Origin: Halotia branconii CENA392
GTDB taxonomy: Bacteria > Cyanobacteriota > Cyanobacteriia > Cyanobacteriales > Nostocaceae
DNA length: 64,000 nt
Assembly: GCF_029953635.1 (NCBI RefSeq)
Contig: NZ_CP124543.1
Coordinates: forward strand, 2,831,455-2,895,454
Direction: 5' to 3'
Each line of letters begins with the position of its first letter. Within the stretch, counting starts at the first letter, position 1. Below, piece after piece: positions 29,232 to 49,887 of this stretch. The position numbers were made by a program, and so were the translations under genes. The notes beneath the pieces were generated by a model. That model saw only the letters and a program-made list of their open reading frames with translations. It did no database searches and was not told the origin of the DNA.

Positions 29232-29299
29232 TTTTTAACAGACTTTAGGTGATTCAGGCAAATAGCTACGGGGTAATTAGGTGGCGCAAATAAAGTTAA

Positions 29300-29365
29300 C
29301 TAGTACTGCTGTGCGTAATGACGCTCCTGCGTCACTACCGCTGCGCTAACGTAATTCGTAATTAC
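29300..29365. repeat. dispersed repeat between hepA and hepC
   Basis: A compound of cgtaatgacgctcctgcgtca and gcgctaacgtaattcgtaattac elements matches the type seen at 3146-3200. It occupies the 231-bp gap where a hepA-proximal promoter might otherwise be sought. Confidence 0.55.
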
Positions 29366-29462
29366 AAATTTGTATTAGGATAGTCGTTTGTCATTGATCA
29401 ATACAAATAACCAGTGACAAATGACGACCCTCACAAAAACAACACAATACCTTGGTGGTAGA

Positions 29463-33260: not shown

Positions 33261-33280
33261 GTTTATTATCCTTTAATTGA

Positions 33281-34369: not shown

Positions 34370-34521
34370 AAGCTTTAACCACAGTTTATCTAAATTTTGT
34401 GTGAACACTTCCCAGCAAGTTGCAATCAACAACTTAAGTGTTCAGTTAAGAATTACTTGTCCAAAATAATTCTGATAAATATTTGTACTTGTTATGTTTA
34501 TGCCTGAATGATGAGATGTCA

Positions 34522-34601
34522 GTAGGGTGCGTTACGCCACAGGCTAACGCACCATCCTAGATTTGCGGTGCGTTAGGACTAACATCCATAATGCACCCTA
34601 C
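34522..34601. repeat. gtagggtgc inverted dispersed repeat
   Basis: Perfect 9-bp ends gtagggtgc (34522-34530) and gcaccctac (34593-34601) surround gcgttacgcca/ctaacgcacc type units. It is a common cyanobacterial palindromic repeat lying in a 250-bp gap between two co-oriented genes. Confidence 0.65.
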
Positions 34602-34617
34602 TTACTACTACTTGCTA

Positions 34618-35931
34618 CTAACCAACTGTTGCCAATATTTTGGCTGGGACAAAATAAGCGTTTTGCTCAGCTCGTAGTTGGTCGCAAAGTCTACCTTCAG
34701 GTAACTCTACATCATCGTAAGTTAGGACTTGATCTTGAGGAATATCTCGTTTGAGACGACAACCTTCAGCTAAACCCATTGGTAAAAGTTGTTGTTCTTG
34801 AACGATGGGAGAATTTTCACATTGACCATAAGTCATGTAATAACCGATACCATCAAGGGTTTCTCCGGCTTTGAGGTCTATTTTGGCTGTGGTGACTACA
34901 TCTACTAACGGACCAGCTAGGGGAGATAAAACAGCATCACCGAATAAGACGGCACGAGCAACAGATAGTGGAACTTCAAAATGACAAAGATGATAAGGAG
35001 TATAAAAGCTGTAAAGAGGGCCTTCACCTAATTTGTACAAGTTGAGGTAATGACGTTGCTTGGGGTCGTCGTGAGTAGCATAGACAAATACACCGGGGCC
35101 TGGTTTTGCGCCTACTACATAATCGACAATGCCGCCTAGTTGCTGGAGTTGTTCGACATCATACATTTGGGTCATCTCATCGACATGACCGTTGAAGTCG
35201 TATCCTAACATACCTCTTTTGGCAACTTGCATCCCTGTGGCATTAGCAACGATCGCCTGCTCGAAGGAAATTTTTGTCCCGTCGGCAAAACTAGTTACCA
35301 TGTGAGCTTTTTGACCCCAACGCTTGGCAAATGCTTCTTGAGTCGTAGGATTACGATAGGGGTCTTGGAGTCCTTTAATGTTACCGCACAACAACGGAGT
35401 CAGACCAATGCTTTTGACAAATCGGTAAAGATTCATTTCCACCCCTGGCTGATCGCCATCACAGGCGCTGAGAATCACGCCAGCTTTGTCGGCATAGACT
35501 TTGAGGATAGGACCAATTGTGCCGTCAAGTTCGGCATTCATCATAATTACATGTTTGCGATGAGCGATCGCTTCCATGACAACATGAGCGCCAAATTCGA
35601 CTGCGCCTGTAACTTCAATAATTGCCTCTATGCCTGCGGCTTGGCACAATAACATAGCATCTTCGGTGACTGCATATTTATCGTTAGCGATCGCATCTTC
35701 TAATTCACTGCGGGTGGAGACGATTTGTATATCTTCAATTCCCGCCTCCATATAAGCTTTTTTGGCTGCATCTATCTGACGGTTGAAGATTGCAACTAAT
35801 TCCATCCCCGGAACAGAATTGATGATTTGATTGGCAATACCTCTACCCATAAAACCAGCACCAATCATCCCGACTTTAATGGGATTACCTGCGGCGGCGC
35901 GTGCTTGTAAGGCGCGATCAATAATAATCAT
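34618..35931 (-). CDS. NAD(P)-dependent oxidoreductase with SAF domain
   Basis: A 437-residue protein. The Rossmann motif GMIGAGFMGRGIANQI is at about 20-35. A homoserine dehydrogenase-like catalytic region follows, and a C-terminal SAF domain covers about 355-420 (GETLDGIGYYMTYGQ, AEGCRLKRDIPQDQVLTYDDVELPEG). SAF domains occur in sialic acid synthases and related sugar-acid enzymes. The family is found in polysaccharide clusters, where it may make or modify a branched or acidic sugar. The substrate is not known. Homologues lie in the HEP island of Anabaena 7120. Confidence 0.82.
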   Translation of the reverse strand: MIIIDRALQARAAAGNPIKVGMIGAGFMGRGIANQIINSVPGMELVAIFNRQIDAAKKAYMEAGIEDIQIVSTRSELEDAIANDKYAVTEDAMLLCQAAGIEAIIEVTGAVEFGAHVVMEAIAHRKHVIMMNAELDGTIGPILKVYADKAGVILSACDGDQPGVEMNLYRFVKSIGLTPLLCGNIKGLQDPYRNPTTQEAFAKRWGQKAHMVTSFADGTKISFEQAIVANATGMQVAKRGMLGYDFNGHVDEMTQMYDVEQLQQLGGIVDYVVGAKPGPGVFVYATHDDPKQRHYLNLYKLGEGPLYSFYTPYHLCHFEVPLSVARAVLFGDAVLSPLAGPLVDVVTTAKIDLKAGETLDGIGYYMTYGQCENSPIVQEQQLLPMGLAEGCRLKRDIPQDQVLTYDDVELPEGRLCDQLRAEQNAYFVPAKILATVG

Positions 35932-35950
35932 TGTTAATTCCTTTATTTAC

Positions 35951-36108
35951 CAGTTGTCAGTTGTCAGTTGTCAGTGGTCAGTGGTCAGTTGTCAATGGTC
36001 AGCTGCTACTTAATTCGTTTAATTTATTTAGGATAAATGACCTTGTTGTTAGTTATTAATTGTCAATTGTCAGTTGCTACTGACAACTAACTACTGACCA
36101 CTGACATT
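35951..36108. repeat. STRR: tcagttg / tcagtgg arrays
   Basis: Two blocks of tandem heptamers (gtcagttgtcagttgtcagt at about 35956-36000 and ctgacaactaactactgacc at about 36068-36105) occupy the gap between the epimerase and the SAF oxidoreductase genes. They are opposite in orientation and could pair. Confidence 0.75.
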
Positions 36109-36111
36109 TTA

Positions 36112-36681
36112 TTAAACAGTTACTTCTAAAGGGTCAGGACTACCAATAGGCATCGTTTCCAACAAAGGCCAATTTAAATCTTTCTCGGAAATCACCGTTA
36201 CTTCTAGAGGCCATTCAATATTAAAAAATGGATCGTCGTAGCGTAGACCTCGTTCATATCCTGGTGTGTAAAATTCACCCACTTGATACACTACTTCAGT
36301 TTCATCTGTGAGTGTTTGATAGCCATGAGCGAACATTTCGGGAACATATAAAGCGCGACGATTGGCTGCGGTTAGTTCTACACCAATATGTGATAAAAAA
36401 GTAGGCGATTCTGGACGCATATCAATAATTACGTCATAGATAGCACCTTTAGTACAGCGAATTAATTTTGTTTCTGCTGCTGGGGCAAGTTGATAATGCA
36501 TTCCCCGCAATGTGCCTTTTTTGTAGTTAAAAGACAAGTTACATTGAGCAACTATTGGTTTTAATCCGTGTGCTGCAAATTCTTGAGCGCAGAAAGCACG
36601 GGCAAAAAAGCCACGGTGGTCTGACTTTTCTTCTAAATCAATGATGAATGCGTCTTGGAGTTCTGTAGTAGTAAAAATCAT
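36112..36681 (-). CDS. rfbC: dTDP-4-dehydrorhamnose 3,5-epimerase-like protein
   Basis: A 189-residue cupin-fold epimerase. The conserved core is GTLRGMHYQLAP (catalytic histidine in this block), then KLIRCTKGAIYDVIIDMRPESPTF, then YVPEMFAHGYQTLTDETEVVYQVGEFYTPGYERGLRYDDP. It inverts C3 and/or C5 of a 4-keto-6-deoxy sugar nucleotide. No rfbA or rfbB lies nearby, and the upstream sugar-nucleotide gene is a CDP-glucose synthase. The true substrate may thus be a CDP-linked 4-keto sugar rather than dTDP-4-dehydrorhamnose. Confidence 0.85.
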   Translation of the reverse strand: MIFTTTELQDAFIIDLEEKSDHRGFFARAFCAQEFAAHGLKPIVAQCNLSFNYKKGTLRGMHYQLAPAAETKLIRCTKGAIYDVIIDMRPESPTFLSHIGVELTAANRRALYVPEMFAHGYQTLTDETEVVYQVGEFYTPGYERGLRYDDPFFNIEWPLEVTVISEKDLNWPLLETMPIGSPDPLEVTV

Positions 36682-36740
36682 GATTAAACTCTGGTAAATG
36701 TTAACTACATAAATAAAATTATTTATGCAAAATTGTGCAA

Positions 36741-37574
36741 TCAGCTTGATAAGGTTTCTAACTCTGGTCTTGGATATGTATTATCCCAATATTGGTTGCA
36801 TAAATCTGGCTTTTTCGGCGGATTGGCAGTATATGCAAAAAATAAAGTTGCTCTTTCTTGTGTGCGGATCGTTCCATGATGCAAAGCAATTTTCGGGTCT
36901 ACTATAATTACTGTACCTGCTTCACCTGGACAGGATTTCCAAGCAGATTCGGGAATAATTTTTTTTAGTTCTTCATCTGTAATGCCAACGTAACCTGCCT
37001 GCCAAAGTTTATAGTAAATGCGATAATAATTCAAACTCCATAGGGAAGTTAAAGATATTGGTAAATATTCAAAAGGTCCATGTTTTTTTTCTACATCTGT
37101 CAAATAGATGATAATTTTAATCATCCGTCGATCTTCAGAATCTTTATGCCATAGCAACGTGCCAAACTGTTGCTCATTAGGAAAATCTTTGCGTAAATGT
37201 ACGCCGTGAAAAATAATGGGAAGACCAATATATTTTTCGATGATATTGAGTAACCTTGGTTCATTTCCCCAGTTAGAAAATTCTGGTAAATCTGTGACTT
37301 GATAAATATGTGGCAATTTTTGGTTAAAATTGTCGTGATTTACCTTGGTCATTATGGATAATTGTTTCAATGCAGCTTGAAGTAATTCTGGAGTAGAATT
37401 TAAACCTAAATCTGCTAGTGTTGTAATATGAACACCCGATTTTTTGAGATTGTCTAAAATCAAGCGATCGCCTGACTCCAAAACAGGTAGTTTTTTGGCA
37501 TGATGCCAAAGTTTTTTTCTATAAACTAACTCAGAATTGAGTGCCGATAGTTTGCCTGTAATAGTTTTTAGCAT
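36741..37574 (-). CDS. phytanoyl-CoA dioxygenase (PhyH) family protein
   Basis: A 277-residue putative non-heme Fe(II)/2-oxoglutarate oxygenase. The iron-binding HxD is LLWHKDSEDRRM (about 140-151). The distal histidine lies in KIALHHGTIRT, followed by the 2-oxoglutarate arginine in QERATLFFAY. Family members hydroxylate small molecules, lipids or sugars. In this cluster it may tailor a sugar or lipid carrier. It lies 7 bp downstream of the GT2 gene and 59 bp upstream of the epimerase gene, so it is part of the same transcript. Confidence 0.82.
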   Translation of the reverse strand: MLKTITGKLSALNSELVYRKKLWHHAKKLPVLESGDRLILDNLKKSGVHITTLADLGLNSTPELLQAALKQLSIMTKVNHDNFNQKLPHIYQVTDLPEFSNWGNEPRLLNIIEKYIGLPIIFHGVHLRKDFPNEQQFGTLLWHKDSEDRRMIKIIIYLTDVEKKHGPFEYLPISLTSLWSLNYYRIYYKLWQAGYVGITDEELKKIIPESAWKSCPGEAGTVIIVDPKIALHHGTIRTQERATLFFAYTANPPKKPDLCNQYWDNTYPRPELETLSS

Positions 37575-37581
37575 GGCATGG

Positions 37582-38628
37582 CTACCTTGTTTTAATTATC
37601 GATTTACTATGAGGCGATCGCTTATGATAGTTAGTTCGCAATTCTTGTGCAGATGGCTCACTATTATCAAAGATTTGAAACTCTTTAAAAGCCACAATAT
37701 CAAAAGCCGAAATACTGACTAAAGTCAAAAAAGGAACTAATGTTTTGATGGCAGAAACAGGCCATCTTCTCAAAGCACCTAAAAAGACTTTTATGCTAAC
37801 TTCTTTAGAGTTGTGTAAAAGCATTTGCCTACAAAACTGCTTAGAATATCCGGCTTCTTCAAGTTTCAAAATAACTTCAGGGATGTGTTTGTATTGCATT
37901 AACAGTGCAGATTTAGGCTCTTTTTGCCAATAACTCACACCAACAATACATTCTAGATAAGTTTCCTTAGTGACAATTACATCACCATTGGCAGCACAAT
38001 AACCAGCTAAATATGCCAATGATATCCAATTGTTGGCAGCGTCTGGCCAAGATTGTAGAGCGCGTTTTACTAAGTCAGTACGATAAACAGTAGCAGTCAG
38101 AAAAATCACAGCACCAACACTTTTAGCAAAACAGTGTTCAAATATAGTTTTACCATCACTACTAGCATCTTCAATATCGGCATCAAACCAGCGATTACCA
38201 GTTATTGTTGGTGGATGTACTGGTTCACCAGTAATTTTATTTCTCCCAGAGAAGTTGAGAAATAATAATGATAATTCTTCATTTTCTTTGAGCTTATTAA
38301 TTACATAATTAACGGCTCTATCTTGAATAGGATCATCATCTCCAATTGTCCAAACATATTTTGTAGTTGCGGAATTTAGGCAGTACATAATATTTCTCAT
38401 TACGCCTAAATTTTCCGGATTTCTATTAGTTTTAAAAGAGATATCGCTCAGGTGTTGTTGCCACTTACTGATTACTTCTTGAGTATGATCAGTAGAACAA
38501 TTATCAGAAATTAAAATTTCGCAATCCAATTCAAAACCTTTGATAGCTTGAGCCAGCCATGCCAACTGTTTATCAAGTAACTCAGCACGATTATAAGTAG
38601 GTATGGCAATGGTCAACAATTTGTTCAT
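37582..38628 (-). CDS. family 2 glycosyltransferase
   Basis: A 348-residue GT-A enzyme. LTIAIPTYNRAELLDKQLAWLAQAIKGFELDCEILISDNCSTDHT gives the nucleotide-binding start. The metal motif is VWTIGDDDPIQDRAVNYVINKL (about 93-114). The second half is helical, with a hydrophobic segment near the C-terminus. The next gene (PhyH type) begins 7 bp downstream. Sugar specificity unknown. Confidence 0.88.
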   Translation of the reverse strand: MNKLLTIAIPTYNRAELLDKQLAWLAQAIKGFELDCEILISDNCSTDHTQEVISKWQQHLSDISFKTNRNPENLGVMRNIMYCLNSATTKYVWTIGDDDPIQDRAVNYVINKLKENEELSLLFLNFSGRNKITGEPVHPPTITGNRWFDADIEDASSDGKTIFEHCFAKSVGAVIFLTATVYRTDLVKRALQSWPDAANNWISLAYLAGYCAANGDVIVTKETYLECIVGVSYWQKEPKSALLMQYKHIPEVILKLEEAGYSKQFCRQMLLHNSKEVSIKVFLGALRRWPVSAIKTLVPFLTLVSISAFDIVAFKEFQIFDNSEPSAQELRTNYHKRSPHSKSIIKTR

Positions 38629-38713
38629 TTTTAAACCAACAGCTTGTTAAGTAACTAAACAGAATTAATTACACACCTTGTTTATCTGTTCTCTGTTCAC
38701 TTCTATGAGATGC

Positions 38714-38747
38714 TTCTTCCGAGTCAAAGTTTTTTGACTCGGAAGAA
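38714..38747. terminator. 15-bp perfect hairpin in HEP-like run
   Basis: Arms ttcttccgagtcaaa (38714-38728) and its complement (38733-38747) pair around a 4-nt loop, between the epimerase gene and the downstream GT2 gene. There is no T-run on the minus strand. It may be a processing, partial-termination or repeat element. Confidence 0.5.
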
Positions 38748-38787
38748 AGAACCAAATAAATTCGAGACTGCTAATCAGATAACTAAA

Positions 38788-39816
38788 TTACTTTTTCTTC
38801 CAAAAAAAATCTTGGTCAATTTGCTCAGTCCGAATTAGATACTCTAGCTGTTTTAACCGTGTGAAACCTCTAAATAAGAAAGTATCCTCAGTCATATCAA
38901 TTTGATTGAATAACTCAAATAGCTGTTGAGCGCCAAGTTGAGCATTCCAATCACACTTGAATCCAGGTAAGATAGTGTTGATTTTCTCGAAGGATACTCG
39001 ATAGCTGCGATTGTCTGCACCGTTATCACCAAAAGACAATTTACAACCAGGGAAACTATTGGCAATAATTTCGGCAATTTCTTTCACCCGATAGTTATTC
39101 GCCGTATCTCCGACATTGAAGATTTGGTTGTGAACAATGTCACGGGGTGCTTCAATCGCACACACGATTGCTTTACAAATATCTAATGCATGGACTAAGG
39201 GTCGCCAAGGCGTACCATCACTGGTCATTGCGATTTCTTTAGTAGTCCATGCCAACCCTGCCAAGTTGTTTAACACAATATCAAACCGCATCCTGGGGGA
39301 AGCGCCAAAAGCAGTAGCATTCCGCATAAAGGTAGGAGAGAAATCATCATCAGCTAAGAGTTTGACATCTCGTTCTACTAAAGTTTTACAGTCTGCGTAA
39401 GCTGTTTGGGGATTAATTGGAGATGTTTCTGTGACATCGCCTTCAGTCGCAACACCATAGACACTGCACGAAGACATATATATAAAGCGCCGCACACCCA
39501 TTGCTTTAGCTAGGTTTGCCAGACGCACTGAACCTAGATGATTAATTTCATAAGTGATATTAGGTGCTAATTGTCCGGTGGGGTCGTTGGAGAGTTCCGC
39601 CATGTGTACTACAGCTTCTACACCAGCCAACTCTTCAGGAGCAATATGGCGGATATCTTTATTAAGAGTTTTAGCTGTCACTTCAGTACCGTTGTACAGC
39701 CAACCAACTTTATAAAAACCAGTATCTACGCCGATAACTTCGTGTCCTCGTGCGATTAATAAAGGAGGTAATAATGAACCTAAATAGCCTTCTGTGCCAG
39801 TGACTAAGATTTTCAT
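38788..39816 (-). CDS. NAD-dependent sugar epimerase/dehydratase (extended SDR)
   Basis: A 342-residue extended SDR. The cofactor loop is VTGTEGYLGSLL at the N-terminus, with D31 (VIGVD) ending strand 2. The active site is SSCSVYG with the Y-x3-K motif in QTAYADCKTLVE. It acts on a nucleotide-linked sugar as epimerase, dehydratase or reductase. The C-terminal substrate domain differs from GalE and RmlB. It is co-oriented with the sugar genes of the cluster, with 97 bp (repeat-containing) to the acyltransferase gene upstream. Confidence 0.88.
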   Translation of the reverse strand: MKILVTGTEGYLGSLLPPLLIARGHEVIGVDTGFYKVGWLYNGTEVTAKTLNKDIRHIAPEELAGVEAVVHMAELSNDPTGQLAPNITYEINHLGSVRLANLAKAMGVRRFIYMSSCSVYGVATEGDVTETSPINPQTAYADCKTLVERDVKLLADDDFSPTFMRNATAFGASPRMRFDIVLNNLAGLAWTTKEIAMTSDGTPWRPLVHALDICKAIVCAIEAPRDIVHNQIFNVGDTANNYRVKEIAEIIANSFPGCKLSFGDNGADNRSYRVSFEKINTILPGFKCDWNAQLGAQQLFELFNQIDMTEDTFLFRGFTRLKQLEYLIRTEQIDQDFFWKKK

Positions 39817-39913
39817 GCTTGTAAATTTTTGTGTGGCGATTAGTATCAGTCATCAGTTATCAGCCATCAATCAAAAGACACTTGATAACTGTTCACTGTT
39901 CACTGTTTACTGT

Positions 39914-40612
39914 TTAATGATTTCGTTGACCAATTACCTTAGCAGGTACACCAACTGCTATGGAGTAAGGAGGAATATTTTTATTGACAACTGCTCCTGC
40001 GCCAATGACACTACCGCGACCAATAGTGACACCATCTATGACTGTAACTCCATGACCCAGCCAACAATCATCCTCGATGACAATCCCTTTTCTAGTAACT
40101 CCTTGGTCAGCAATTGTCCGCAACGGATCTGCAAAAATGTGACCGTTACCATAGATGCCAGAATGAGCTGCAATCAGACAATTCTTGCCGATTTTGATGT
40201 TACCGTAACCAGTAATACAGGTATATAAACCGATGTATGTACCTTCACCAATTTCAATACAAGAATTTTGGAGTGTACCTAAATCGACACCACGTTCTAA
40301 AGTTACTCCAGAACCGAGAGAAATCCGATTGTTGGCTTCACCAAGTGTATTCAGCCGCACACCACTACAAATTTTGACTCTATCTCCGATTTCGATGCCA
40401 GCAGTACCGTAAAGTTTGACATCGGTTTCGATGCAAACAAATTTGCCGAACTGAGCAAAAATCTGTGGATAAAAGAGTTTTCTTAAGTGGACTCCTAAAG
40501 CAATTGTTGGTAGATATCCTAATAGTGTAGTTACAAAGACTTCTTTTAGGCGTGCCAATTTGGCAGGAATCATTAATAAATCACGATTCCATTTACCTGC
40601 TACGCTATTCAT
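39914..40612 (-). CDS. left-handed beta-helix acyltransferase
   Basis: A 232-residue hexapeptide-repeat transferase (WbbJ/maltose acetyltransferase type). Imperfect hexapeptides run from about residue 70 to 220 (IEIGDRVKICSGVRL, ISLGSGVTLERGVDLG, CIEIGEGTYIG, VIEDDCWLGHGVTVIDGVTIGRGSVIGAGAVV). The catalytic histidine is probably in WLGHGV or in LIAAHSGIYG. It should acetylate a sugar hydroxyl or amine of the polysaccharide or a precursor. STRR blocks flank it on both sides. Confidence 0.88.
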   Translation of the reverse strand: MNSVAGKWNRDLLMIPAKLARLKEVFVTTLLGYLPTIALGVHLRKLFYPQIFAQFGKFVCIETDVKLYGTAGIEIGDRVKICSGVRLNTLGEANNRISLGSGVTLERGVDLGTLQNSCIEIGEGTYIGLYTCITGYGNIKIGKNCLIAAHSGIYGNGHIFADPLRTIADQGVTRKGIVIEDDCWLGHGVTVIDGVTIGRGSVIGAGAVVNKNIPPYSIAVGVPAKVIGQRNH

Positions 40613-40654
40613 AGTATTTATTTTCAGCAGTAATGCTATGTATACGCTACGCGG

Positions 40655-40872
40655 GTCAGTTGTTAGTTGTCAGTTGTCAGTTGTCAGCGATGCACTGAGT
40701 TTCGACACTTCGACAGGCTCAGTGCGGCGCTGCGCGGTAATCGAAGTGTTGTCAGTTGTTAGTTGTTAGTTGTTTTTGATCTGGTTTAATACCCTATTTC
40801 TTTGTGGTTGGGGGGTAATTTTAAAACATTTTTACCACTGACCACTGACTACTGACCACTAACCACTGACAA
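40655..40872. repeat. STRR arrays interrupted by a second repeat
   Basis: Heptamers of the gtcagtt/gttagtt type (40656-40686 and 40751-40772) are interrupted by a unit beginning gcgatgcactgagtttcgac and ending cggtaatcgaagtgt (about 40687-40750). A reverse-type array (ctgaccactgactac) lies at 40837-40870. Confidence 0.7.
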
Positions 40873-40876
40873 AATT

Positions 40877-42106
40877 CTATCCCCTGTCCCCTGCTGTAAT
40901 TACTACAGTCTCAAGATGTGACTGGTGAGGAATTTGAGCAACAATTGCTGTACCAATTTCTAAGGAAGAGGTAGCAGCTGGAGAAGGAGCATTGCAAACA
41001 TGGATAGAATTTTGACCAGGAACGATCAAAAAATCGTCTACCAAAGAGCCATCGTTCTTTAAAGCTTGAGCGCGAACTCCTGCATGGGTGGGTACTAAAT
41101 CTTGCGCTTGGACTTCGGGAATTAGTTTTTGCAAACTTCTGGTGAAGGCTGCTTTACTAAAAGAACGAATAATTTCTTGAATGCCTTCGTCAGCATGTTT
41201 TGCAGCTAGTTTCCAAAAACCGGGATAGGTGATGACTTCGGCAAGATCTCCTAAATTAAAGTCGGTTTTTTTGTAACCTTCGCGTTTGAAGCTAAGAACG
41301 GCGTTTGGTCCTGCATGAACGCTGTTGTCAATCATCCGGGTAAAGTGGACACCCAAAAAAGGGAAATCTGGGTTGGGAACCGGATAAATGAGAGTTTTCA
41401 CCAAATAACGTTTTTCTGGGGTGAGTTCGTAGTATTCTCCCCGGAAGGGAACGATTTTCGCTTGGGGTTCTGCCCTACCTAATTTAGCAACGCGATCGCT
41501 ATGCAATCCGGCACAATTGATCACAAAGCGAGTTTCAAAGCTGCCATTGTTTGTTTCTAATACCTGATTTTGACCGCTAGGAGAAATTTTTAGCACCTTT
41601 GTATTCAGGCGTAATTCTCCTCCTTGTTGTTGAATTAATTCAGCGTATTTGAGACAAACTTGCTTATAATTAACAATGCCAGTTGAAAAAACCCTAATTC
41701 CACCTACACACCTGACATGAGGTTCAATTTCTTTAACTGCTTCTGGGCTAATTTTTTGAACCTTAATACCATTCTCTAAACCGCGTTTATAAAGGTTTTC
41801 TAGACGTGGTAGTTCTTGTTCTTCAGTTGCCACAATTACTTTGCCGCAAACTTCATGGTCAATACCATGTTCTTGGCAAAATTCTACCATTGAGCGACTA
41901 CCGTCACGGCAGAATTTAGCTTTAAAACTCCCTGGTTTATAGTAAATACCAGAGTGAATTACTCCGCTATTGTTGCCGGTTTGGTGAAATGCCCACTGGT
42001 TTTCTTTTTCTAATACTAAAATGCGGGCATGAGGATAGCGTTTACCCAAAGCTAGCCCTGTAGATAGTCCGACGATTCCTCCACCGACAATAGCAAAATC
42101 AAACAT
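40877..42106 (-). CDS. lhgO: FAD-dependent oxidoreductase, L-2-hydroxyglutarate oxidase-like
   Basis: A 409-residue DAO-fold flavoprotein. The FAD-binding loop is DFAIVGGGIVGLSTGLALG at the N-terminus, and GNNSGVIHSGIYYKPGSFKAKFCRDG is the LhgO signature. Near the C-terminus HAGVRAQALKNDGSLVDDF and HVCNAPSPAATSSLEIG complete the fold. The family oxidises L-2-hydroxyglutarate to 2-oxoglutarate at the membrane. Here it sits between the CDP-glucose synthase and acyltransferase genes, so a sugar or hydroxy-acid substrate used in the polysaccharide is also possible. The Anabaena HEP island has a gene of the same type in the same position. Confidence 0.85.
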   Translation of the reverse strand: MFDFAIVGGGIVGLSTGLALGKRYPHARILVLEKENQWAFHQTGNNSGVIHSGIYYKPGSFKAKFCRDGSRSMVEFCQEHGIDHEVCGKVIVATEEQELPRLENLYKRGLENGIKVQKISPEAVKEIEPHVRCVGGIRVFSTGIVNYKQVCLKYAELIQQQGGELRLNTKVLKISPSGQNQVLETNNGSFETRFVINCAGLHSDRVAKLGRAEPQAKIVPFRGEYYELTPEKRYLVKTLIYPVPNPDFPFLGVHFTRMIDNSVHAGPNAVLSFKREGYKKTDFNLGDLAEVITYPGFWKLAAKHADEGIQEIIRSFSKAAFTRSLQKLIPEVQAQDLVPTHAGVRAQALKNDGSLVDDFLIVPGQNSIHVCNAPSPAATSSLEIGTAIVAQIPHQSHLETVVITAGDRG

Positions 42107-42176
42107 TGGTATTATTACACTTGAAATTACAAAAAAGTTAAAAATTAAGAATTATATTTAATTCATAACTTTCTTT

Positions 42177-42950
42177 CTACCATACTTTCCAAGGGGCGCG
42201 ATCGCTTTTCCAGAGATCTTCTAAATAGTTTTTATCTCGTAAAGTATCCATAGGTTGCCAAAAGCCTTGATGTTTAAACGCCGATAACTGTTCCATATCA
42301 GCTAGCTTTTCTAATGGTTCTTTCTCCCAAACTGTGGAGTCATCAGCAATTAAGTTGATTACTTCTGGTTCCAAGACAAAATAACCACCATTAATCCAAG
42401 CGCCATCACCTTCAGGTTTTTCTCGAAAGCTGTGGATTTTTGTTTGTTCTTGTCCTAAAGAAATTGCCCCAAATCTTCCTGCTGGTTGAACTGCTGTCAG
42501 TGTTGCTAAAGACTTTTGTTCTTTATGAAAGTTAATTAACTCTGTGATATTGACATCACTCACACCATCACCATAAGTAAAGCAAAAGGTGTCATTGCCA
42601 ACATGCTCCCAAACACGTTTTAAACGTCCACCTGTCAGGGTGTGATCACCTGTATTGACTAAGGTGACACGCCAGGGTTCGGCATATCCAGAATGCACAT
42701 TCATTTGGTTAAATCGCATATCAAATGTGACATCTGACATGTGTAAAAAGTAGTTAGCAAAGTACTCTTTAATGATGTACCCTTTGTAACCGCAACAGAT
42801 AATGAAGTCATTAATGCCGTGGGCAGAATAAATTTTCATTATGTGCCATAAAACTGGCTTACCGCCAATTTCAACCATCGGCTTTGGTCTGATACTAGTT
42901 TCTTCACTGAGGCGTGTACCAAGACCTCCAGCCAAAATCACCGCTTTCAT
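42177..42950 (-). CDS. rfbF: glucose-1-phosphate cytidylyltransferase
   Basis: A 257-residue nucleotidyltransferase making CDP-glucose from CTP and glucose 1-phosphate. AVILAGGLGTRLSEETSIRPKPMVEIGGKPVLWHIMKIY gives the nucleotide loop and the catalytic lysine region. FCFTYGDGVSDVNI supplies the metal aspartate, and GRFGAI and INGGYFVLEPEV follow. It is the first gene of the minus-strand polysaccharide run, 71 bp ahead of lhgO. CDP-glucose is the entry point to CDP-linked 3,6-dideoxy or branched sugars. The Anabaena 7120 HEP island begins with the same enzyme. Confidence 0.93.
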   Translation of the reverse strand: MKAVILAGGLGTRLSEETSIRPKPMVEIGGKPVLWHIMKIYSAHGINDFIICCGYKGYIIKEYFANYFLHMSDVTFDMRFNQMNVHSGYAEPWRVTLVNTGDHTLTGGRLKRVWEHVGNDTFCFTYGDGVSDVNITELINFHKEQKSLATLTAVQPAGRFGAISLGQEQTKIHSFREKPEGDGAWINGGYFVLEPEVINLIADDSTVWEKEPLEKLADMEQLSAFKHQGFWQPMDTLRDKNYLEDLWKSDRAPWKVW

Positions 42951-43294
42951 GCAATTACCTCGGAGATTTGCAGGGAATTATTATTTTGAATCAATCGGGA
43001 TGAAGAGGATGCACATGGATGAGCGAAAACTCAGTTTTAAATGTAGTTTTCTTCGTACATAATCTAACGGAAATTTTGAGCAGTTTTATAAAGTATAGGT
43101 AAATAAAAATCTGGGATGTGTAAAAGCTTTATGAATATCTCTAAAATGTCAAATTGCCTAAATTTAATAAATCAAAATGTTACCTAAAAAACAAATAGGA
43201 TTAGCTGGTGCTAACCCTATTTAAGAATACTTTCTACAATTTAAAGCAACAAACTACCAGTAATAAACTAGTGGCAAAGTTTACTAGTTTGTAA
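42951..43294. other. presumed promoter region of the polysaccharide operon
   Basis: This 344-bp gap separates the first polysaccharide gene from the end of the kinase-TPR gene. Apart from the terminator at 43194-43222 it is AT-rich with no gene. I found no perfect gtaN8tac site. The closest is gta-N10-tac at about 43032. Confidence 0.5.
43194..43222 (-). terminator. rho-independent terminator of the kinase-phosphatase-vWA operon
   Basis: A stem of about 13 bp (aaataggattagc / gctaaccctattt, one mismatch) with a 4-nt loop. On the minus strand it is followed at once by tttgtttttt. It lies about 70 bp after the stop of the kinase-TPR gene. Confidence 0.75.
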
Positions 43295-45502
43295 CTAATT
43301 GGTTTCTTTACTGTTCCAGATGTTAGAGTTGGGGAATAAAGCACTACATCTGGTTTCTACCATTACACACATACTACTAAGTGCTTGTTGGTAATTTTCT
43401 GTATCCTTTTGTTCCAGAGAAAGCTTGGCAGCTAATTGTAAATCTTCGATGGCTTTGCGATTATTTTGGTCTGATTCACTACCGCCATATTGCGAAAGTT
43501 CATAACGAAGCATACCGCGTTTGAGATAAACTTTAGCCAATTTATCATTGAGCAGTAATGCTTGGTCAAAGTCATTGATCGCTTTTTGGTATTCTTGAGC
43601 GTAATCGCTGCTATATTGAGCCATTTGATAGCGTACAGAGCCACGCTGAAAATAAGCTTCGACTTTGGCTGAATTGAGGTCAAGTGCCTGAGTAAAATCA
43701 GCAACTGCTAGTTTGTAATCTTTTAAAGATTCGCTGCTGTATTTAGCCATTTGCGATCGCACAACACCTCTTCTGATATAAGCTTCTGCTTCTTGATTGT
43801 TCAAGTACAGAGCTTTATTAAAGTCAGCGATCGCTTGTTTATATTCTCGATCAGGATCGTTACTATAATCAGCCAGCATGTAACGAGAATTACCTCGATT
43901 CACATAAGCTTTGACTTCTTGGGGATTGATTTGCAAAGCTTGGTTATAGTCTGCAAGCGCACCTTCATAATCTTTGAGGTTATAGCGAGCATTGCCGCGA
44001 TTAACATAAGCTTTGGAATTTGTCGGCTCTTGTTTGATGGCTTGGCTAAAATTTTCTACTGCTTGGTCATAGTCGCGTATTTGGTAAGCTGCATGTCCCT
44101 GTTTATAATAATCAGCAAAGCTGAGAGTAGGAGTTTTAACCTTGGGACGAGCAATCAAGGTTTGTTGGGTGTATGCATTTTGAGAAACAAATGGACGAGT
44201 AAATTTAACCATTACGTCCAAATAGCCCAACAACCCAAAACCTAGCAAGCAAAAAATCGCCGGGTAAACCTTCGCTTTGTGAGAACGTTTGTAAGGAGCA
44301 TAATTAGCGGTATTTCCTCTTTGCCAATAATTCCAGTGGTGCAACGGCATGACTGGTTGTGGCAAACGCGCAGGCTGGGGAACGTAACGCCTTTTTGGGA
44401 CTCTGCGCGGCTTGAGATGTTCTCTATTGGCGATCGCTTGTGGCGATGGGAATGGATCGCGTCCACCTAATCGGACGGTACGTTCACACCAAGGACAAGT
44501 GTTTAGGTGGTTGTTATAGCGATGTTGAGGATTGGTGGTGCAAGTAATTAGACTATCTTCTGCTTCTGCTAATGCCGACAGCCAATTTTGAGCGCTAGGA
44601 CGCAGTTGGGTATCGCTGTGACCATCTTCAAAACAACGCAAAAACAATTCTTGCAACTTAGGATGGAGAATTTCCCAAGCTGGGGCAATGGGAGTAGGGA
44701 GGTAAGGAACTTGCCGCTTACGACTGTAAGTAAAATGCCCCGCTGCAATTCGGGCTTCGTAAGGCGGTGGCTCAGGAATACCTTGAAATATTCCTGAAAA
44801 TGGGTGTGTACCTTCCATGAGAAGTTGAAATACCAGTACCCCTAAACCAAACAAGTCGTGAGCAATTTCGCGATCGTGTTGAGCAAAAATTTTGTTTTGC
44901 AGTTCTGGTGGGGTAAACTCTGGTTTACCCACTGGACAACGATAAACAACACTGTTGTCTAAGTCACGTACTTGAAAGGAGTCTGTGTCTACTAAGGTTA
45001 CAAGTGCTGTGTCACTAACCAAGATATTGGACTCGTTGACATCACCAACACAATAGCCACTGCTATGCAAAGCTGCAAAAGCGGCTGCTAAATTGCGAGC
45101 CGTGCGGAGTAGGTATTGATAATTGAATAAAGGGCAATGTTGGCGGCGAGTTCTGGGGTTGTAAAAATCGATGACAGGACGCATCCCGCGAATCCGCGGC
45201 ATGAGAAAGCCGATAATGCGATCGCTATTATTATCAGCAAACTCATCGCTAATATCTGCCGCCCGGAGTAAATCGAGAGGCCAAGCAATAGAAATATGCC
45301 CCAAGCTAGCCGTAGGATTTTCTGGCGGATTAGCCAGCATTGCCTGGAGTTTATAGGCGTGGGCAACGGTGGGCTTGTGATAAATTTTTGCTACTAGCTC
45401 ACTATCTGAGGGCAGAGCATAAATACAAGCTTCACCGCCACGACCTAAACTGACGCTGAGGTTGATGATTTCTGGGTTGGGAAGACAACGTAGTACCTGC
45501 AT
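43295..45502 (-). CDS. TerY-P type Ser/Thr kinase with zinc knuckle, TM and TPR repeats
   Basis: A 735-residue fusion. Residues 15-315 are a divergent protein kinase: GRGGEACIY glycine loop, K39 in VAKIYHK, catalytic loop CVGDVNESNIL in place of HRD, and VDTDSFQV (D172 or D174) in place of DFG. C321, H327, C336 and C339 (LNTCPWCERT) form a probable zinc knuckle seen in TerY-P triad kinases. A basic low-complexity linker and one TM helix (about 413-432) follow, then about six TPRs (455-700) with AYVNRGNARYNLKDYEGALADYN-type units. It forms an operon with the PP2C and vWA genes. The TPR part would lie on the other side of the membrane from the kinase. Confidence 0.85.
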   Translation of the reverse strand: MQVLRCLPNPEIINLSVSLGRGGEACIYALPSDSELVAKIYHKPTVAHAYKLQAMLANPPENPTASLGHISIAWPLDLLRAADISDEFADNNSDRIIGFLMPRIRGMRPVIDFYNPRTRRQHCPLFNYQYLLRTARNLAAAFAALHSSGYCVGDVNESNILVSDTALVTLVDTDSFQVRDLDNSVVYRCPVGKPEFTPPELQNKIFAQHDREIAHDLFGLGVLVFQLLMEGTHPFSGIFQGIPEPPPYEARIAAGHFTYSRKRQVPYLPTPIAPAWEILHPKLQELFLRCFEDGHSDTQLRPSAQNWLSALAEAEDSLITCTTNPQHRYNNHLNTCPWCERTVRLGGRDPFPSPQAIANREHLKPRRVPKRRYVPQPARLPQPVMPLHHWNYWQRGNTANYAPYKRSHKAKVYPAIFCLLGFGLLGYLDVMVKFTRPFVSQNAYTQQTLIARPKVKTPTLSFADYYKQGHAAYQIRDYDQAVENFSQAIKQEPTNSKAYVNRGNARYNLKDYEGALADYNQALQINPQEVKAYVNRGNSRYMLADYSNDPDREYKQAIADFNKALYLNNQEAEAYIRRGVVRSQMAKYSSESLKDYKLAVADFTQALDLNSAKVEAYFQRGSVRYQMAQYSSDYAQEYQKAINDFDQALLLNDKLAKVYLKRGMLRYELSQYGGSESDQNNRKAIEDLQLAAKLSLEQKDTENYQQALSSMCVMVETRCSALFPNSNIWNSKETN

Positions 45503-45558
45503 GATAAAATCACGGTTAACGGGGGTTATTTAAAATACCAAACTTGCAAAATCCTGGC

Positions 45559-46341
45559 TCATGTGTTGTTGAAGGCAGCAATAATTAGTGTTAAATCATC
45601 ATCAGTACGTTGCGTAATTCGCTCAGAACCTAGAAATCTGACTAATTGCTCTTTGGCAGCTGTCTTATCCTCAGCATTCTTGACAAAGTCAAATAAAGGA
45701 AAAAAGAATGGTTTGTGAGGTTCACCAACAACCATATTTAAAGCCAACATTTGTAGCCCATCTGTGAGGAGTGCAACATTAACTATAGTTTCACGCCACA
45801 ATCTCATCTGGGCTGTATCTAAAGCACCTGGTGAAGTCAAAAAAGTTGTTTCATTGATATATTCACCATTGTCAGGCAAGGTGAGTGCTAGTAAGTTGCC
45901 TTGATTATCTTTGGCGACTGCCAAACCATCACCTATTTGCACCGCTGCGGCCATTTCTGGTGTAGCGATCGCAATAATTAAGGTAGTTGCTAAATCTTGG
46001 GGCTGTTGTCTAACGGCTGCGGCTTCATCTTCCACAGCTTTTTTAGCGGCTAATAAGGCCTCATTTAACAGCGTTTGGACAAGCTGATCATCAGCGAGGG
46101 AGTCTCTGGTGATTTGTCTGATTGAGAGGCTTTCTATTGCTGCTTCTACAGCCACCATTGCTCCCACTTTTCCCTGACTAGCAGAACCCGCACCATCCGC
46201 AGCCGCCGCCACCAACACATTGCCAGGCAATAACTGCCAGTGGTGGGCATCTTGACACAGCTGCTTATTTTTGATGTGGCTAGTACCACATATAGATGCG
46301 GCGACTACCCGCCAATGAGTGATCAATTTTGATGTTTTCAT
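45559..46341 (-). CDS. PP2C family protein phosphatase
   Basis: A 260-residue PPM/PP2C phosphatase. The metal-site motif AAADGAGSASQGKVGA (about 48-63) carries the first aspartate. VQIGDGLAVAKDNQGNLLAL provides the second motif, LLTDGLQML the third, and TQRTDDDLTLIIAAF the last. GTSHIKNKQLCQDAHHW at the N-terminus is the usual PP2C start. It probably reverses phosphorylation by the kinase encoded 56 bp downstream, with the vWA protein encoded 60 bp upstream as scaffold or target. Confidence 0.9.
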   Translation of the reverse strand: MKTSKLITHWRVVAASICGTSHIKNKQLCQDAHHWQLLPGNVLVAAAADGAGSASQGKVGAMVAVEAAIESLSIRQITRDSLADDQLVQTLLNEALLAAKKAVEDEAAAVRQQPQDLATTLIIAIATPEMAAAVQIGDGLAVAKDNQGNLLALTLPDNGEYINETTFLTSPGALDTAQMRLWRETIVNVALLTDGLQMLALNMVVGEPHKPFFFPLFDFVKNAEDKTAAKEQLVRFLGSERITQRTDDDLTLIIAAFNNT

Positions 46342-46401
46342 AGAGTAGGTGTTTTCTATCAGCTAGCTGTGTGCATATTAAGCTGCGATTAAAGGCACAA
46401 T

Positions 46402-47076
46402 TTAGATAGTTCCCCAGCCAATGGGCGGTAGTGCTACCTGTTCGTCTACTTGCGAATGGGAAACAGCTGACATACTAGCTGAGAGCCAAACAAACATCTC
46501 AATAAAATTAAGTCCTTTGAGCTTTAGTGGAGTACGCACAGCTATTTGATTTAAGCGCACCATATTAGCGTTTTCTACACCTACTGAGAAGAAAGCTACA
46601 CGTTTATTGGTTTCATCTCCTTGTAAGCGCTGCGCTGCTTGCTCTACTACTTGGTCTAGTTCGCCTTGTGGTTCTCCATCAGTAATCATGAATACCCAAG
46701 GCCGATAGTAAGCAATACCATTAGCACGATACAGAGATTTGCGCTCTTGAACCATGTCCAACGCCTTATGGATTCCCGACCCCATAGTCGTTAGTCCCTG
46801 TGCTGTCAAAATTGGCGGATTGAATTGATCGGCAGTCACGAAGTCTTGTACAACATTCACATGACTGTCAAACGTGACGATCGCCACTTCTACCCGCCTA
46901 GCTGCTAAGGAATTTTTTACCAGTTCATCTTTCAAACTCAGCAAGCCCTGATTTAAAGCTTCTATCGCCTCTCCTTGCATGGAACCAGATGTGTCTAGCA
47001 ACAACACACAAGGACAACGTGGTTCTGGGTTTTCAGCAAACTCCACTACTTCATCAAGACTTAAAGTATCGTGCAT
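46402..47076 (-). CDS. TerY-like von Willebrand factor A domain protein
   Basis: About 224 residues from the ATG at 47076 (MHDTLSLDEVVEFAENPEPR); an in-frame TTG 9 codons upstream is less likely. The MIDAS metal site is DTSGSM (28-33) with the distal T in TTMGSG and D in ITDGEPQGE. TerY proteins are cytoplasmic vWA modules of the tellurite/phage-resistance Ter systems. They also occur in a stand-alone triad with a PP2C phosphatase and a kinase, as here. It is the first gene of the triad operon. Confidence 0.88.
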   Translation of the reverse strand: MHDTLSLDEVVEFAENPEPRCPCVLLLDTSGSMQGEAIEALNQGLLSLKDELVKNSLAARRVEVAIVTFDSHVNVVQDFVTADQFNPPILTAQGLTTMGSGIHKALDMVQERKSLYRANGIAYYRPWVFMITDGEPQGELDQVVEQAAQRLQGDETNKRVAFFSVGVENANMVRLNQIAVRTPLKLKGLNFIEMFVWLSASMSAVSHSQVDEQVALPPIGWGTI

Positions 47077-47720
47077 AACTTTTTGTGTTATGTTATAGTC
47101 CAAAGCTTTATTTTCCTTTGTTCAAAGTATATAGTTTAATTTCCGGAGTCTACGAGACTAAAGGTAGATGTTTGACGGTAGTTAGTCCCAATCTTTATTA
47201 AATAGATTGTTTTTACCAAATTATTTACAAGATTTAAGATAATCTTCATCATGGTCTAGTTAAGGAATCTATCAGGGATCAACATTGTTTGATTAGTAAA
47301 TCTACTAACATTTATTATAGACAAAATACGAATTGTATTATAATAATACGCAGATTCACTGACCTAAAACTTTAAAGATTCTGTGTAGAAAGTTTGTTTT
47401 TTTATAAAAGAAACCGATTTAATTGCAATTAACTTTGTCAGCATGACAATTCTACCTGTGTAACTAAAACTTAAAATTAAAATTGCATGGTAAATGTTAG
47501 TCCCAGGAGGATTTTGCTAAAAAACGTAACAAACTAGTAACGTTGCATAAATACTCACCAAAGACAAAAAATTAACTACGTAATCGCTTCTGTAAAAGGA
47601 TTTCAGACATTTTTGATGGTGGTTTATTTTTGCCTGACTATACTAATTAGATTTTTAATATATGTACATATTATCCAAATAGTAATAATTTTTTTTTAGA
47701 GAAATATTAAAACTAATAAA
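47077..47720. other. divergent promoter region
   Basis: This region lies between the vWA and PATAN-REC genes, which are divergent. It is AT-rich. A dyad aatac-gaatt-gtatt lies at 47335-47349. No gene, tRNA or recognised riboswitch is seen. Confidence 0.45.
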
Positions 47721-49169
47721 ATGTCGCATGACCATACTTATTTTTCGGATAACTTTTTCAGAAAACTCCTAAACATGAAGAATTTCGGTACATTTACAGT
47801 ACTACATCCTCAGAGTTTATTACGACAGTTATCTAATAGCTCTGAAACTACTTGTCTGCAAGCCTTTAGCAATTCTGTAACTTGGACGATTTATCTAGAG
47901 CAAGGAACAATAACTTATGCCACCCATTCAGTAGAGCCTTTTGATCGATTAGAACGCCATCTGCGTCGCTTCAGCCAACAAATTCCCCAGTTGACTAGTG
48001 AAACTCGTGTGCAATTGCGCTTGATATTTGAAACTGACTCACAAAGTCAGTTCATAAAAGATCACAGCGTTCAAGATAGCCAACCTCCTGATTATCAAGC
48101 TATTTACTGGTTAATTGAGCAAGGACATTTAGATGCTGCACAAGCTACGATGCTCATTCAAGAATTGGTTAAAGATGTGATGGAATCATTTCTATTAATC
48201 AAAACAGGTACTTATAAATTAAGTGATTCTCAACAAAAAGTACTAAAAATTTGCAGACTAGATATAGAAAAAATTATTGACCGCTGTCAAATACAATTAC
48301 AGCGTTGGCAGTCTTTCTTACCCCAAATTTCTTCTCCCTATCAGCGTCCGTACCTGTTACTTAATAGCAAAAATTCTCTAGACATTCAGCCAAATTTAAC
48401 TGCCTGGATGAAAGGTTTTAGTCTACGTCATCTTGCCATAATTATGAATCAAGATGAAATCCAACTGGCTAAAAATTTATATCCTTACATTCTCCAAGGA
48501 GGGATTATTCTACATGAACCAGACCCACCTTTTGATAAATTACCCAAGATTTTGCTGGAATCGTCATCATTTCCTCAATATACAACAGTATTCTTTAACA
48601 AAGAATTTGCTGACACAGAAGTAGTAGAAGTAAATAGCAATATCACTCCAATTAACGTTGAGCTTCCTGTCGAAAACATAGCCACTGTAGAGGAACTATC
48701 ACAGGTGTCTGCTCCTTTAACAGAAAATCTTCAGGAATTACCAATACCAGATAACATAAATTCTCCAACGCAAAGAGTAACGGCTGCTACTGTAACCACT
48801 AAAAAGACTTATAAAATCGTTTCTGTAGATGATAGCCCAACAATTCTTAAAGAAATTAGTCGTTTTTTAGAAAGTGAAAATTTTACTGTAGTCGCCATTG
48901 ACGATCCACTCAAAGCTGTGATGTCAATTATTAGGCATAAACCCGATTTGATTTTGTTGGATCTGAATATGGCAGGGATTGATGGATATGAATTGTGTCG
49001 AGTTATACGTAATAATTCAATGTTTAAATATACTCCGATTATTTTTGTCACAGGATATAAAGGAATAGTTGATAAAGTAAAAGCTAGATTAGTTGGTGCA
49101 TCTGGGTATTTAACTAAACCTTTTAGTCGTGCAGAATTACTTAAAATCGTTTTTATGCATTTGACATAA
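47721..49169 (+). CDS. PATAN-REC response regulator (PatA-like)
   Basis: A 482-residue protein. The N-terminal PATAN/DUF4388-type region (about 15-280) has TWTIYLEQGTITYATHSVEPFDRLERHLRRF and CRLDIEKIIDRCQIQLQRW. A variable linker (280-355) follows, then a C-terminal receiver with KIVSVDDSPTIL, phospho-acceptor D in LILLDLNMAGIDGY, T in FVTGY and K in YLTKPFS, all canonical. This is the architecture of PatA, needed for normal heterocyst pattern in Anabaena 7120, and of PixG/PilG-type regulators of motility. No CheY, CheW or MCP genes follow it, so it is an orphan. PatA itself is not claimed, because Nostocales have many paralogues. Confidence 0.85.
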   Translation: MSHDHTYFSDNFFRKLLNMKNFGTFTVLHPQSLLRQLSNSSETTCLQAFSNSVTWTIYLEQGTITYATHSVEPFDRLERHLRRFSQQIPQLTSETRVQLRLIFETDSQSQFIKDHSVQDSQPPDYQAIYWLIEQGHLDAAQATMLIQELVKDVMESFLLIKTGTYKLSDSQQKVLKICRLDIEKIIDRCQIQLQRWQSFLPQISSPYQRPYLLLNSKNSLDIQPNLTAWMKGFSLRHLAIIMNQDEIQLAKNLYPYILQGGIILHEPDPPFDKLPKILLESSSFPQYTTVFFNKEFADTEVVEVNSNITPINVELPVENIATVEELSQVSAPLTENLQELPIPDNINSPTQRVTAATVTTKKTYKIVSVDDSPTILKEISRFLESENFTVVAIDDPLKAVMSIIRHKPDLILLDLNMAGIDGYELCRVIRNNSMFKYTPIIFVTGYKGIVDKVKARLVGASGYLTKPFSRAELLKIVFMHLT

Positions 49170-49285
49170 TTACGTATAAATTTACGAATTACGAATTATA
49201 AAGGTATTTGCTGGGTAACGCTAACTCTGTACTCAGCCTACAATTATTCTTTTATCTGCATACGATTTTGTGCAACAATATTCAC

Positions 49286-49486
49286 ATGGAGACTAATATA
49301 GAAATCGTTAACAGTTTAATTCAAGAAGCCCTGGAACTGGGCGGTCATATCAGTAGACGTGCTGTGATTGAAGAGGCTTTAAAAGAGTATGTGCAGCGTC
49401 GAAAGCAATTGAAAGTTTTAGAGCTATTCGGCACAATTGAATACGAAGATAATGATGACCATCAGCAACAGCGCCAGAGAGAATGA
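49286..49486 (+). CDS. vapB: VapB-type antitoxin
   Basis: A 66-residue protein starting at the ATG at 49286; upstream in-frame codons are not conserved-looking. METNIEIVNSLIQEALELGGHISRRAVIEEALKEYV is a ribbon-helix-helix fold of the VapB/DUF2191 type, and an acidic disordered tail (YEDNDDHQQQ) should wrap the toxin. Its stop overlaps the toxin start by 4 bp (ATGA), the usual coupled arrangement. It is expected to autorepress the pair by binding its own promoter. Confidence 0.85.
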   Translation: METNIEIVNSLIQEALELGGHISRRAVIEEALKEYVQRRKQLKVLELFGTIEYEDNDDHQQQRQRE

Positions 49487-49887
49487 AAGTTATTGTTGAT
49501 ACCTCGGTCTGGTCTTTGGCTCTGAGAAGCGATCAAAAAGTTAGTAACTCACACTATGTTGCATTGTTTCGAGAACTAATTACAGATAATCGAGTTATTT
49601 TGCTGGGTGCTATTCGCCAAGAGATACTGTCGGGGATTCGTCAGCCTCACCAATACAATCAACTAAAAAATTATCTCAGCGGCTTTCCCCATTTGGAATT
49701 AGATATTAAAGATTATGAGGTTGCTGCTGAGTTTTATAATACTTGCCGACATCAGGGTATCAAAGGTGCAAACACAGATTTTCTAATTTGTGCCGCAGCC
49801 GTTCGTAGAAATTACAGTATTTTGAGTACAAACAAAGATTTTGAGAATTTTAGTCAGTATATTTCGATAAGTTTGGTTAATGCGTGA
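49483..49887 (+). CDS. vapC: VapC-type PIN-domain toxin
   Basis: A 134-residue PIN ribonuclease. The four acidic metal ligands are visible: D6 (VIVDTSVW), E47 (AIRQEILSG), D99 (GANTDFLI) and D119 (STNKDF). VapC toxins cleave tRNA or rRNA and slow growth when the antitoxin is lost. It is translated with vapB through a 4-bp overlap and is followed by a strong hairpin. All key residues are present, so the toxin is probably functional. Confidence 0.92.
   Translation: MKVIVDTSVWSLALRSDQKVSNSHYVALFRELITDNRVILLGAIRQEILSGIRQPHQYNQLKNYLSGFPHLELDIKDYEVAAEFYNTCRHQGIKGANTDFLICAAAVRRNYSILSTNKDFENFSQYISISLVNA

Follow-up and report, generated by a model that had tools for sequence, protein, structure and literature searches.

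What is a TerY-P signalling triad doing among the genes that build a heterocyst envelope? The question is raised by a 64,000-nucleotide stretch of the genome of Halotia branconii CENA392 (Nostocaceae; RefSeq assembly GCF_029953635.1, contig NZ_CP124543.1, positions 2,831,455 to 2,895,454), here called the window, in which genes for a vWA protein, a PP2C-family phosphatase and a divergent kinase stand at the head of the heterocyst envelope polysaccharide (HEP) island. Whereas TerY-P triads are discussed elsewhere as parts of stress and phage-defence systems, this one belongs to a core set of the family that is nearly fixed beside the HEP genes, co-expressed with them in published data and entered as hypothetical in the tables cited below. 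The triad is real, conserved and in an unexpected setting, and is apparently intact. We tentatively read it, with a rough probability of 0.45, as a TerY-P phosphorylation switch with a receptor kinase that tunes the heterocyst envelope polysaccharide in Nostocaceae.

The genes on which this reading is built are the following, equivalents being those of Anabaena PCC 7120 by gene order:

46402–47076, minus strand: vWA gene, starting with ATG; equivalent of alr2822
45559–46341, minus strand: PP2C-family phosphatase gene, 260 residues; equivalent of alr2823
43295–45502, minus strand: divergent Ser/Thr-type kinase gene, 735 residues; equivalent of alr2824
44486–44542, minus strand: C/H/C/C knuckle of the kinase (C321, H327, C336 and C339; residues 321–339), a putative metal site
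27372–42950, minus strand: HEP island genes, from the alr2825 equivalent to an ABC transporter (the hepA equivalent), assigned by order and annotation

The order of transcription is vWA, PP2C, kinase, with gaps of 60 nucleotides between the first two genes and 56 between the last two; for the vWA gene the open reading frame (ORF) tool offers an alternative TTG start at 47103. The preliminary description had taken the three for one operon, and they are indeed adjacent, on one strand and all supported by Pfam: VWA at E 1.4e-12, PP2C_2 at E 7e-59 and Pkinase at E 1.4e-07, the last right at the model's cut-off, so that the kinase counts as divergent. For the vWA protein, neither Pfam nor NCBIfam gave a TerY model; what it matched were generic VWA models and weak hits. 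The kinase domain is single-copy in the CENA392 genome at E 0.001.

The residues expected of working proteins are in place. In an alignment of 72 kinases (39 family members, a full-length relative belonging to group f3 and 32 others represented by their kinase parts, with loci L078 and L129 left out), K39, D154, N159 and D172 are invariant, as is the knuckle, which the preliminary description had already picked out. The knuckle pattern also occurs in 100/100 family loci; these combine two overlapping collections in which some genomes are counted twice, and their 99 full-length members were reduced to the 39 by removing those at least 90% alike. The metal-ion-dependent adhesion site (MIDAS) of the vWA protein (D37-x-S39-x-S41, T105 and D142, counted from the 47103 TTG) is kept in 112/112 aligned distinct proteins, and D31, D49, G50, D138, D194 and D249 of the phosphatase in 125/125, accessory copies included in both cases. 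These are catalytic or metal-binding residues in the three families, and to judge from them all three triad proteins look active.

A TerY-P triad consists of a vWA protein, a PP2C phosphatase and a kinase with a zinc ribbon, the association with Ter and DNA-processing genes being its usual setting and lying outside the three-gene definition (Anantharaman et al. 2012, as described in the part of PMC11090510 drawn on here). Like this module, the window has the three gene types side by side and a Cys/His cluster after the kinase domain; it differs in the transmembrane helix and TPR tail of its kinase and in its core status beside HEP genes. By its parts it is a TerY-P triad; by its context it is neither a Ter nor a defence system. 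That context is new relative to the preliminary description: the triad's place at the head of the HEP island, its near-universality in the family and its published co-regulation.

How constant, then, is the triad among Nostocaceae? Its kinase domain and knuckle were matched in 144 of 145 sampled family genomes (139/139 good ones, 56/56 genera), the only genome without a match being 88% complete. The best match per genome, the window excluded, is 71–96% identical, in an ORF of 728–785 residues except in G067 (partial match, 654 residues). Loci named in the output (the best 80 of 110, of which 79 have a kinase ORF) come from Nostoc, Anabaena, Calothrix, Scytonema and Nodularia, among others, the nearest being Atlanticothrix silvestris at 96% identity. 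The kinase is a core gene of Nostocaceae. The HEP gene alr2833 has an equivalent in 145/145 family genomes, and because it and the kinase are both nearly universal, a test for co-loss within the family is uninformative.

The arrangement is as constant as the gene. Downstream of the triad lie genes for a nucleotidyl transferase, an FAD oxidoreductase, an epimerase, a glycosyltransferase, a Pfam-less protein and a dTDP-sugar epimerase, then an oxidoreductase, a second glycosyltransferase, a 743-residue Pfam-less protein, a sugar transferase and the ABC transporter (HEP matches in Pfam being accepted to 1e-5 in two of three scans). Their order and kinds track the published Anabaena PCC 7120 list as excerpted, in which alr2822–alr2824 directly precede alr2825 and alr2835 is hepA (PMC4390870). 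The island is delimited there as alr2825–alr2841, and as alr2822–alr2841 in PMC7065334; the triad proteins belong to signalling types and are not sugar enzymes. An extra hexapeptide-repeat transferase at 39914–40612, within the HEP order, is not in the portion of that list available (PMC4390870). Of the 79 named loci with a kinase ORF, 78 keep the vWA, PP2C and kinase genes contiguous, and the alr2825 equivalent follows within three ORFs in 73 of 76 with enough sequence; in the other three it is fourth once and not visible twice. A first family set, overlapping the named one, gives 19 of 21 loci with the alr2825 equivalent, the window included (exceptions G020 and G048).

That the triad is the equivalent of alr2822–alr2824 rests on this gene order and on a check of a FurC site, which is predicted 286 nucleotides before alr2822 (PMC10406281): counterparts with at most three mismatches, all 280–320 nucleotides before the vWA start, occur in 28 of 48 distinct upstream regions, against 0.2 expected by shuffling. 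Expression data from Anabaena can be set beside the window. There the three genes, annotated as hypothetical proteins, have relative ratios (alr2822, alr2823 and alr2824 in turn) of −1.48, −1.58 and −2.24 in a sigC mutant and −1.42, −1.60 and −1.93 in a sigE mutant, alongside HEP genes and read as base-2 logarithms from the footnote of a sister table (PMC4390870); the whole of alr2822–alr2841 has a fold change of −2.5 in a cse mutant (PMC7065334), and expression across alr2816–2838 has risen by 12 h after nitrogen step-down (PMC3141674). Among the matches listed from the openly licensed literature, the excerpts nowhere call alr2822–2824 a TerY-P triad or test it as one, and they include no mutant or assay of these genes; 'alr2824' has no occurrence in the main text, as searched, of a 2007 survey of cyanobacterial kinases (PMC2176072).

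The kinase carries most of what distinguishes this triad, in the part that follows its knuckle:

44201–44266, minus strand: predicted transmembrane helix, kinase residues 413–434 (hydropathy and AlphaFold2)
43412–44119, minus strand: six TPRs, residues 462–697 (Pfam, AlphaFold2 and Foldseek)
43346–43369, minus strand: C712-x6-C719, the only two cysteines past the helix (sequence)

One predicted helix and six repeats (TPR_11, E 4.6e-25) agree with the transmembrane helix and about six TPRs proposed at the outset. An AlphaFold2 model built on the 72-row alignment (mean predicted local distance difference test score, pLDDT, 85.6) lays the protein out as a kinase domain, a linker scoring below 50 (384–412), the helix, a second linker below 50 (435–456), six helix pairs and a short end, with moderate confidence for the helix (block means 63 and 73) and low confidence at the cysteine pair. 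Foldseek matched the model to a consensus TPR protein (9qhb, E 4.5e-11), to PknG (2pzi, E 1.5e-9) and to PknB (5u94). A hydrophobic helix at this place is conserved: the best 19-residue hydropathy past the knuckle is 1.74–2.27 in 100/100 family loci, and the highest value elsewhere in the window's kinase is 1.38, within the kinase domain.

On which side of the membrane, then, might the repeats lie? Lysines and arginines number on average 4.3 on the N-terminal side of the helix versus 2.4 after it, the N-terminal side being the richer in 89 of 100 family loci. Past the helix there are exactly two cysteines, spaced C-x6-C, in 99/99 full-length loci (the remaining one of the 100 is cut short at 461 residues), a pattern that fits export; cysteine makes up 0.68% of the tail in the family versus 1.82% of the kinase part, and the tails of groups f2, f4 and f20 have none in 8 of 8 cases. 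Weighed together, these indications favour export of the tail. The preliminary description had the TPRs outside the cytoplasm; its helix and repeats stand, and the side of the membrane we infer indirectly, from the charge bias, the cysteine spacing and the low cysteine content.

Taken together, these features suggest the following scheme. As the preliminary description had supposed, a transmembrane sensor would control the vWA protein. The kinase would span the cytoplasmic membrane, its catalytic domain and its knuckle facing inward and its TPR domain, held by a disulfide, facing outward; an envelope protein or folding intermediate bound by the TPRs would alter kinase activity; the kinase would phosphorylate the vWA protein, and perhaps itself; the phosphatase would reset the switch; and the vWA protein, through its MIDAS, would signal this onward to a target. 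Co-expressed with the HEP island as heterocysts differentiate, the switch of Nostocaceae would most likely tune the synthesis or deposition of envelope polysaccharide. Should it control envelope assembly, both TerY-P signalling and the control of HEP deposition could be tested directly and cheaply in Anabaena. A bolder version, which we consider unlikely, is that a switch with an exchangeable sensor joined the multicellular programme, its TPR receptor reading the state of the envelope and gating polysaccharide assembly as a checkpoint that couples envelope completion to differentiation.

Where the switch came from bears on what it does. In a tree of 52 of the 135 kinases, rooted at its midpoint and with long branches flagged among the accessory rows, a branch with support 96/95 that was recovered in 98% of bootstraps sets off the core clade. 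Across a phylum set of 291 genomes, a kinase match at E <1e-90 occurs in 32/32 family genomes and 17/259 others, and all 49 kinase-bearing genomes hold a vWA match at E 1.5e-78 or better; kinase and vWA genes lie at most 10 kb apart in eight of the 17 non-family genomes and farther apart or on separate contigs in nine (in G321 perhaps through a contig break). PF03574, which we take to be the HetR family, is found in 32/32 family genomes, 16/17 non-family kinase genomes and 16/242 of the rest. Outside the family, then, the core-clade kinase is present in 16 of 32 hetR-positive versus 1 of 227 hetR-negative genomes (Fisher p 8e-16, uncorrected for relatedness), and the hetR-negative exception, G149, is the family's nearest relative in the kinase tree.

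Relatives in the core clade outside the family bear other tails in the cases examined, as sensor modules would be expected to, and this gives the kinase the look of a receptor whose outer part can be swapped. Pfam identifies single members with a WD40 tail in f2 (L077) and f4 (L071) and, in the second copy of an f2 genome (L078), a GUN4 tail behind the transmembrane helix; L085 of f20 has no Pfam match past the kinase. In f6 (L072, L073, L074, L076, L079 and L082) the tail looks, from hydropathy and the L072 sequence, like a glycine-rich multi-helix membrane part and not TPRs. A secreted TPR protein, c33, encoded near f6 kinases, is a candidate split version of the receptor, seen at three loci of one genus, one of them non-adjacent. 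The tail of G149 (L070) has the TPR pattern and the C-x6-C spacing, in a full-length alignment at 53% identity. Since tails differ and no HEP linkage was seen in the loci read outside the family, the kinase core seems old, its tail variable and its joining to HEP an event within the family.

Several observations weigh against a switch that tunes the envelope polysaccharide. Kinase loci were read in 16 of the 17 non-family genomes, and none adjoins a HEP gene of the window's set (several end at contig ends), so the older role of the core-clade kinase was probably not HEP; a role confined to HEP is likewise weakened, because the kinase clade predates the linkage. Among eight non-family genomes with a relative of alr2833 at E <1e-180 (at most three candidates being scored in each), the core kinase is present in one, G149. 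In G135, a single contig of 7.1 Mb, kinase and alr2833 equivalent are at least 1.7 Mb apart. Co-expression alone is not function; FurC did not bind the alr2822 fragment (PMC10406281); and in the window a terminator-like hairpin lies between the triad and the HEP genes. As to topology, a GUN4 tail behind a transmembrane helix is hard to place outside the cytoplasm, and the tail is barely poorer in cysteine than the kinase part in f6 (0.57 vs 0.60) and in second f2 copies (1.06 vs 1.20).

The strongest rival draws on the same facts. It takes the triad for a receptor-kinase switch that serves general upkeep of the envelope or filament in hetR-bearing cyanobacteria, its place beside HEP reflecting a shared timing of expression, and we regard it as quite possible, if not probable. 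The hetR association, the persistence of the kinase away from HEP genes in non-family loci and the separation in G135 all speak for it, whereas the near-fixed HEP synteny within the family and the co-regulation with HEP speak against it.

That switch also presupposes an outer TPR domain, and it is improbable, in our estimation, that the repeats are instead cytoplasmic, with a helix that serves as a hairpin or peripheral anchor and with TPRs that recruit cytoplasmic partners, as in PknG. PknG is among the top structural matches, and the helix has a moderate hydropathy peak, contains an aspartate and is modelled with moderate confidence; set against this are its conservation in 100/100 loci, the charge bias and the cysteine pattern. 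PknG of Mycobacterium is like the window's kinase in joining a kinase to TPRs and a metal site, and differs in having no triad. It is soluble, and its metal site is located before the kinase. PASTA receptor kinases such as PknB provide another parallel, a cytoplasmic kinase with one transmembrane helix, an outer repeat domain and a PP2C partner; the outer domain is a different one, and these kinases are not known to have a vWA partner or a knuckle. GAP1-N2 systems also combine kinase, PP2C and vWA, the kinase being fused to a zinc ribbon or to transmembrane helices, and differ in their link to GTPase conflict systems and in being described, in the section cited, as restricted to actinobacteria (PMC7159879).

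Could the triad be a weapon against phages? Elsewhere, TerY-P triads have been linked with stress and with CoCoNuT restriction systems (PMC11090510, PMC4978471), and TerY-P-like modules with an OB fold are said, in the portion cited, to defend alone (PMC11090510). In PADLOC the kinase weakly matched defence proteins that themselves contain kinases (the best being mad6 at E 3e-09), the vWA protein and the phosphatase had no hit, and no restriction, helicase or nuclease model matched any of the 25 window proteins scanned. With the triad syntenic and present in 144/145 family genomes, we rejected a mobile or defence island, and consider an anti-phage or restriction-linked module very improbable.

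The core of the Ter stress system is TerC, TerD and TerB. None of these, nor any other Ter gene, is among the same 25 Pfam-scanned proteins, as the preliminary description had noted of the adjacent genes (those to the right of the divergent regulator described below are outside the scan), and TerD is absent from the CENA392 genome, TerB and TerC not having been searched genome-wide. A tellurite or metal-stress (Ter) module, to which the parts would conform as published, with metal sensing hypothesised (PMC11090510), is rejected on these two absences and is the least credible of all.

Further features flank the triad:

43192–43223, minus strand: terminator-like hairpin, 14 pairs and a T run, 3' of the kinase gene
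47721–49169, plus strand: divergent response regulator with DUF4388 and REC domains (Pfam)
47077–47720, no strand assigned: vWA/regulator intergenic region, with TCCGGA at 47142–47147 and TATATACT at 47126–47133

Of 100 family kinases, 58 are followed by a comparable hairpin, versus 8 of 180 random 300-nucleotide stretches, and the triad probably forms a transcription unit by itself; over the window as a whole the terminator scan gave no excess (4 found vs 4.1 in shuffles), and a sigma-70 scan gave 13 sites vs 11.4. The regulator is divergent upstream in 73 of the 75 named loci with room for it and also lies near the triad in G149; its domain order is reminiscent of PatA. TCCGGA, the DIF1 hexamer, occupies a single position, give or take one base, in 22 of the 101 upstream regions, where shuffling predicts 2.3, and anywhere in 143 of 4333 stretches of 400 nucleotides; since it is missing from the other 79 regions, it lends weak support to a DIF1 promoter upstream of the vWA gene. 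The TATATACT box beside it is kept more widely than TCCGGA itself.

Several of the genes alr2825–alr2841 were reportedly found by Huang et al. in 2005 to be needed for the envelope layer, alr2822–2824 going unnamed.

Accessory TerY-P sets, with kinases about 40% identical, also occur. Those at L110, L111, L113, L115, L116 and L120 share the flanking genes c12 and c13, and five of these six family loci also adjoin an atp-like cluster; c12 resembles apcE. Their tails vary: WD40 in L110, TPR in L113, where no vWA ORF was found, and short in L116 and L120. In two other accessory kinases (L125:7538–9523 and L118:8042–10336) a twin-arginine-like motif lies internally, ahead of an FGE-sulfatase or GUN4 domain; this could mean Tat export of the tail. 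Beyond the regulator, at 49208–49887 of the window, lies a small two-gene pair that, judged from its translations, resembles a VapBC-type toxin–antitoxin.

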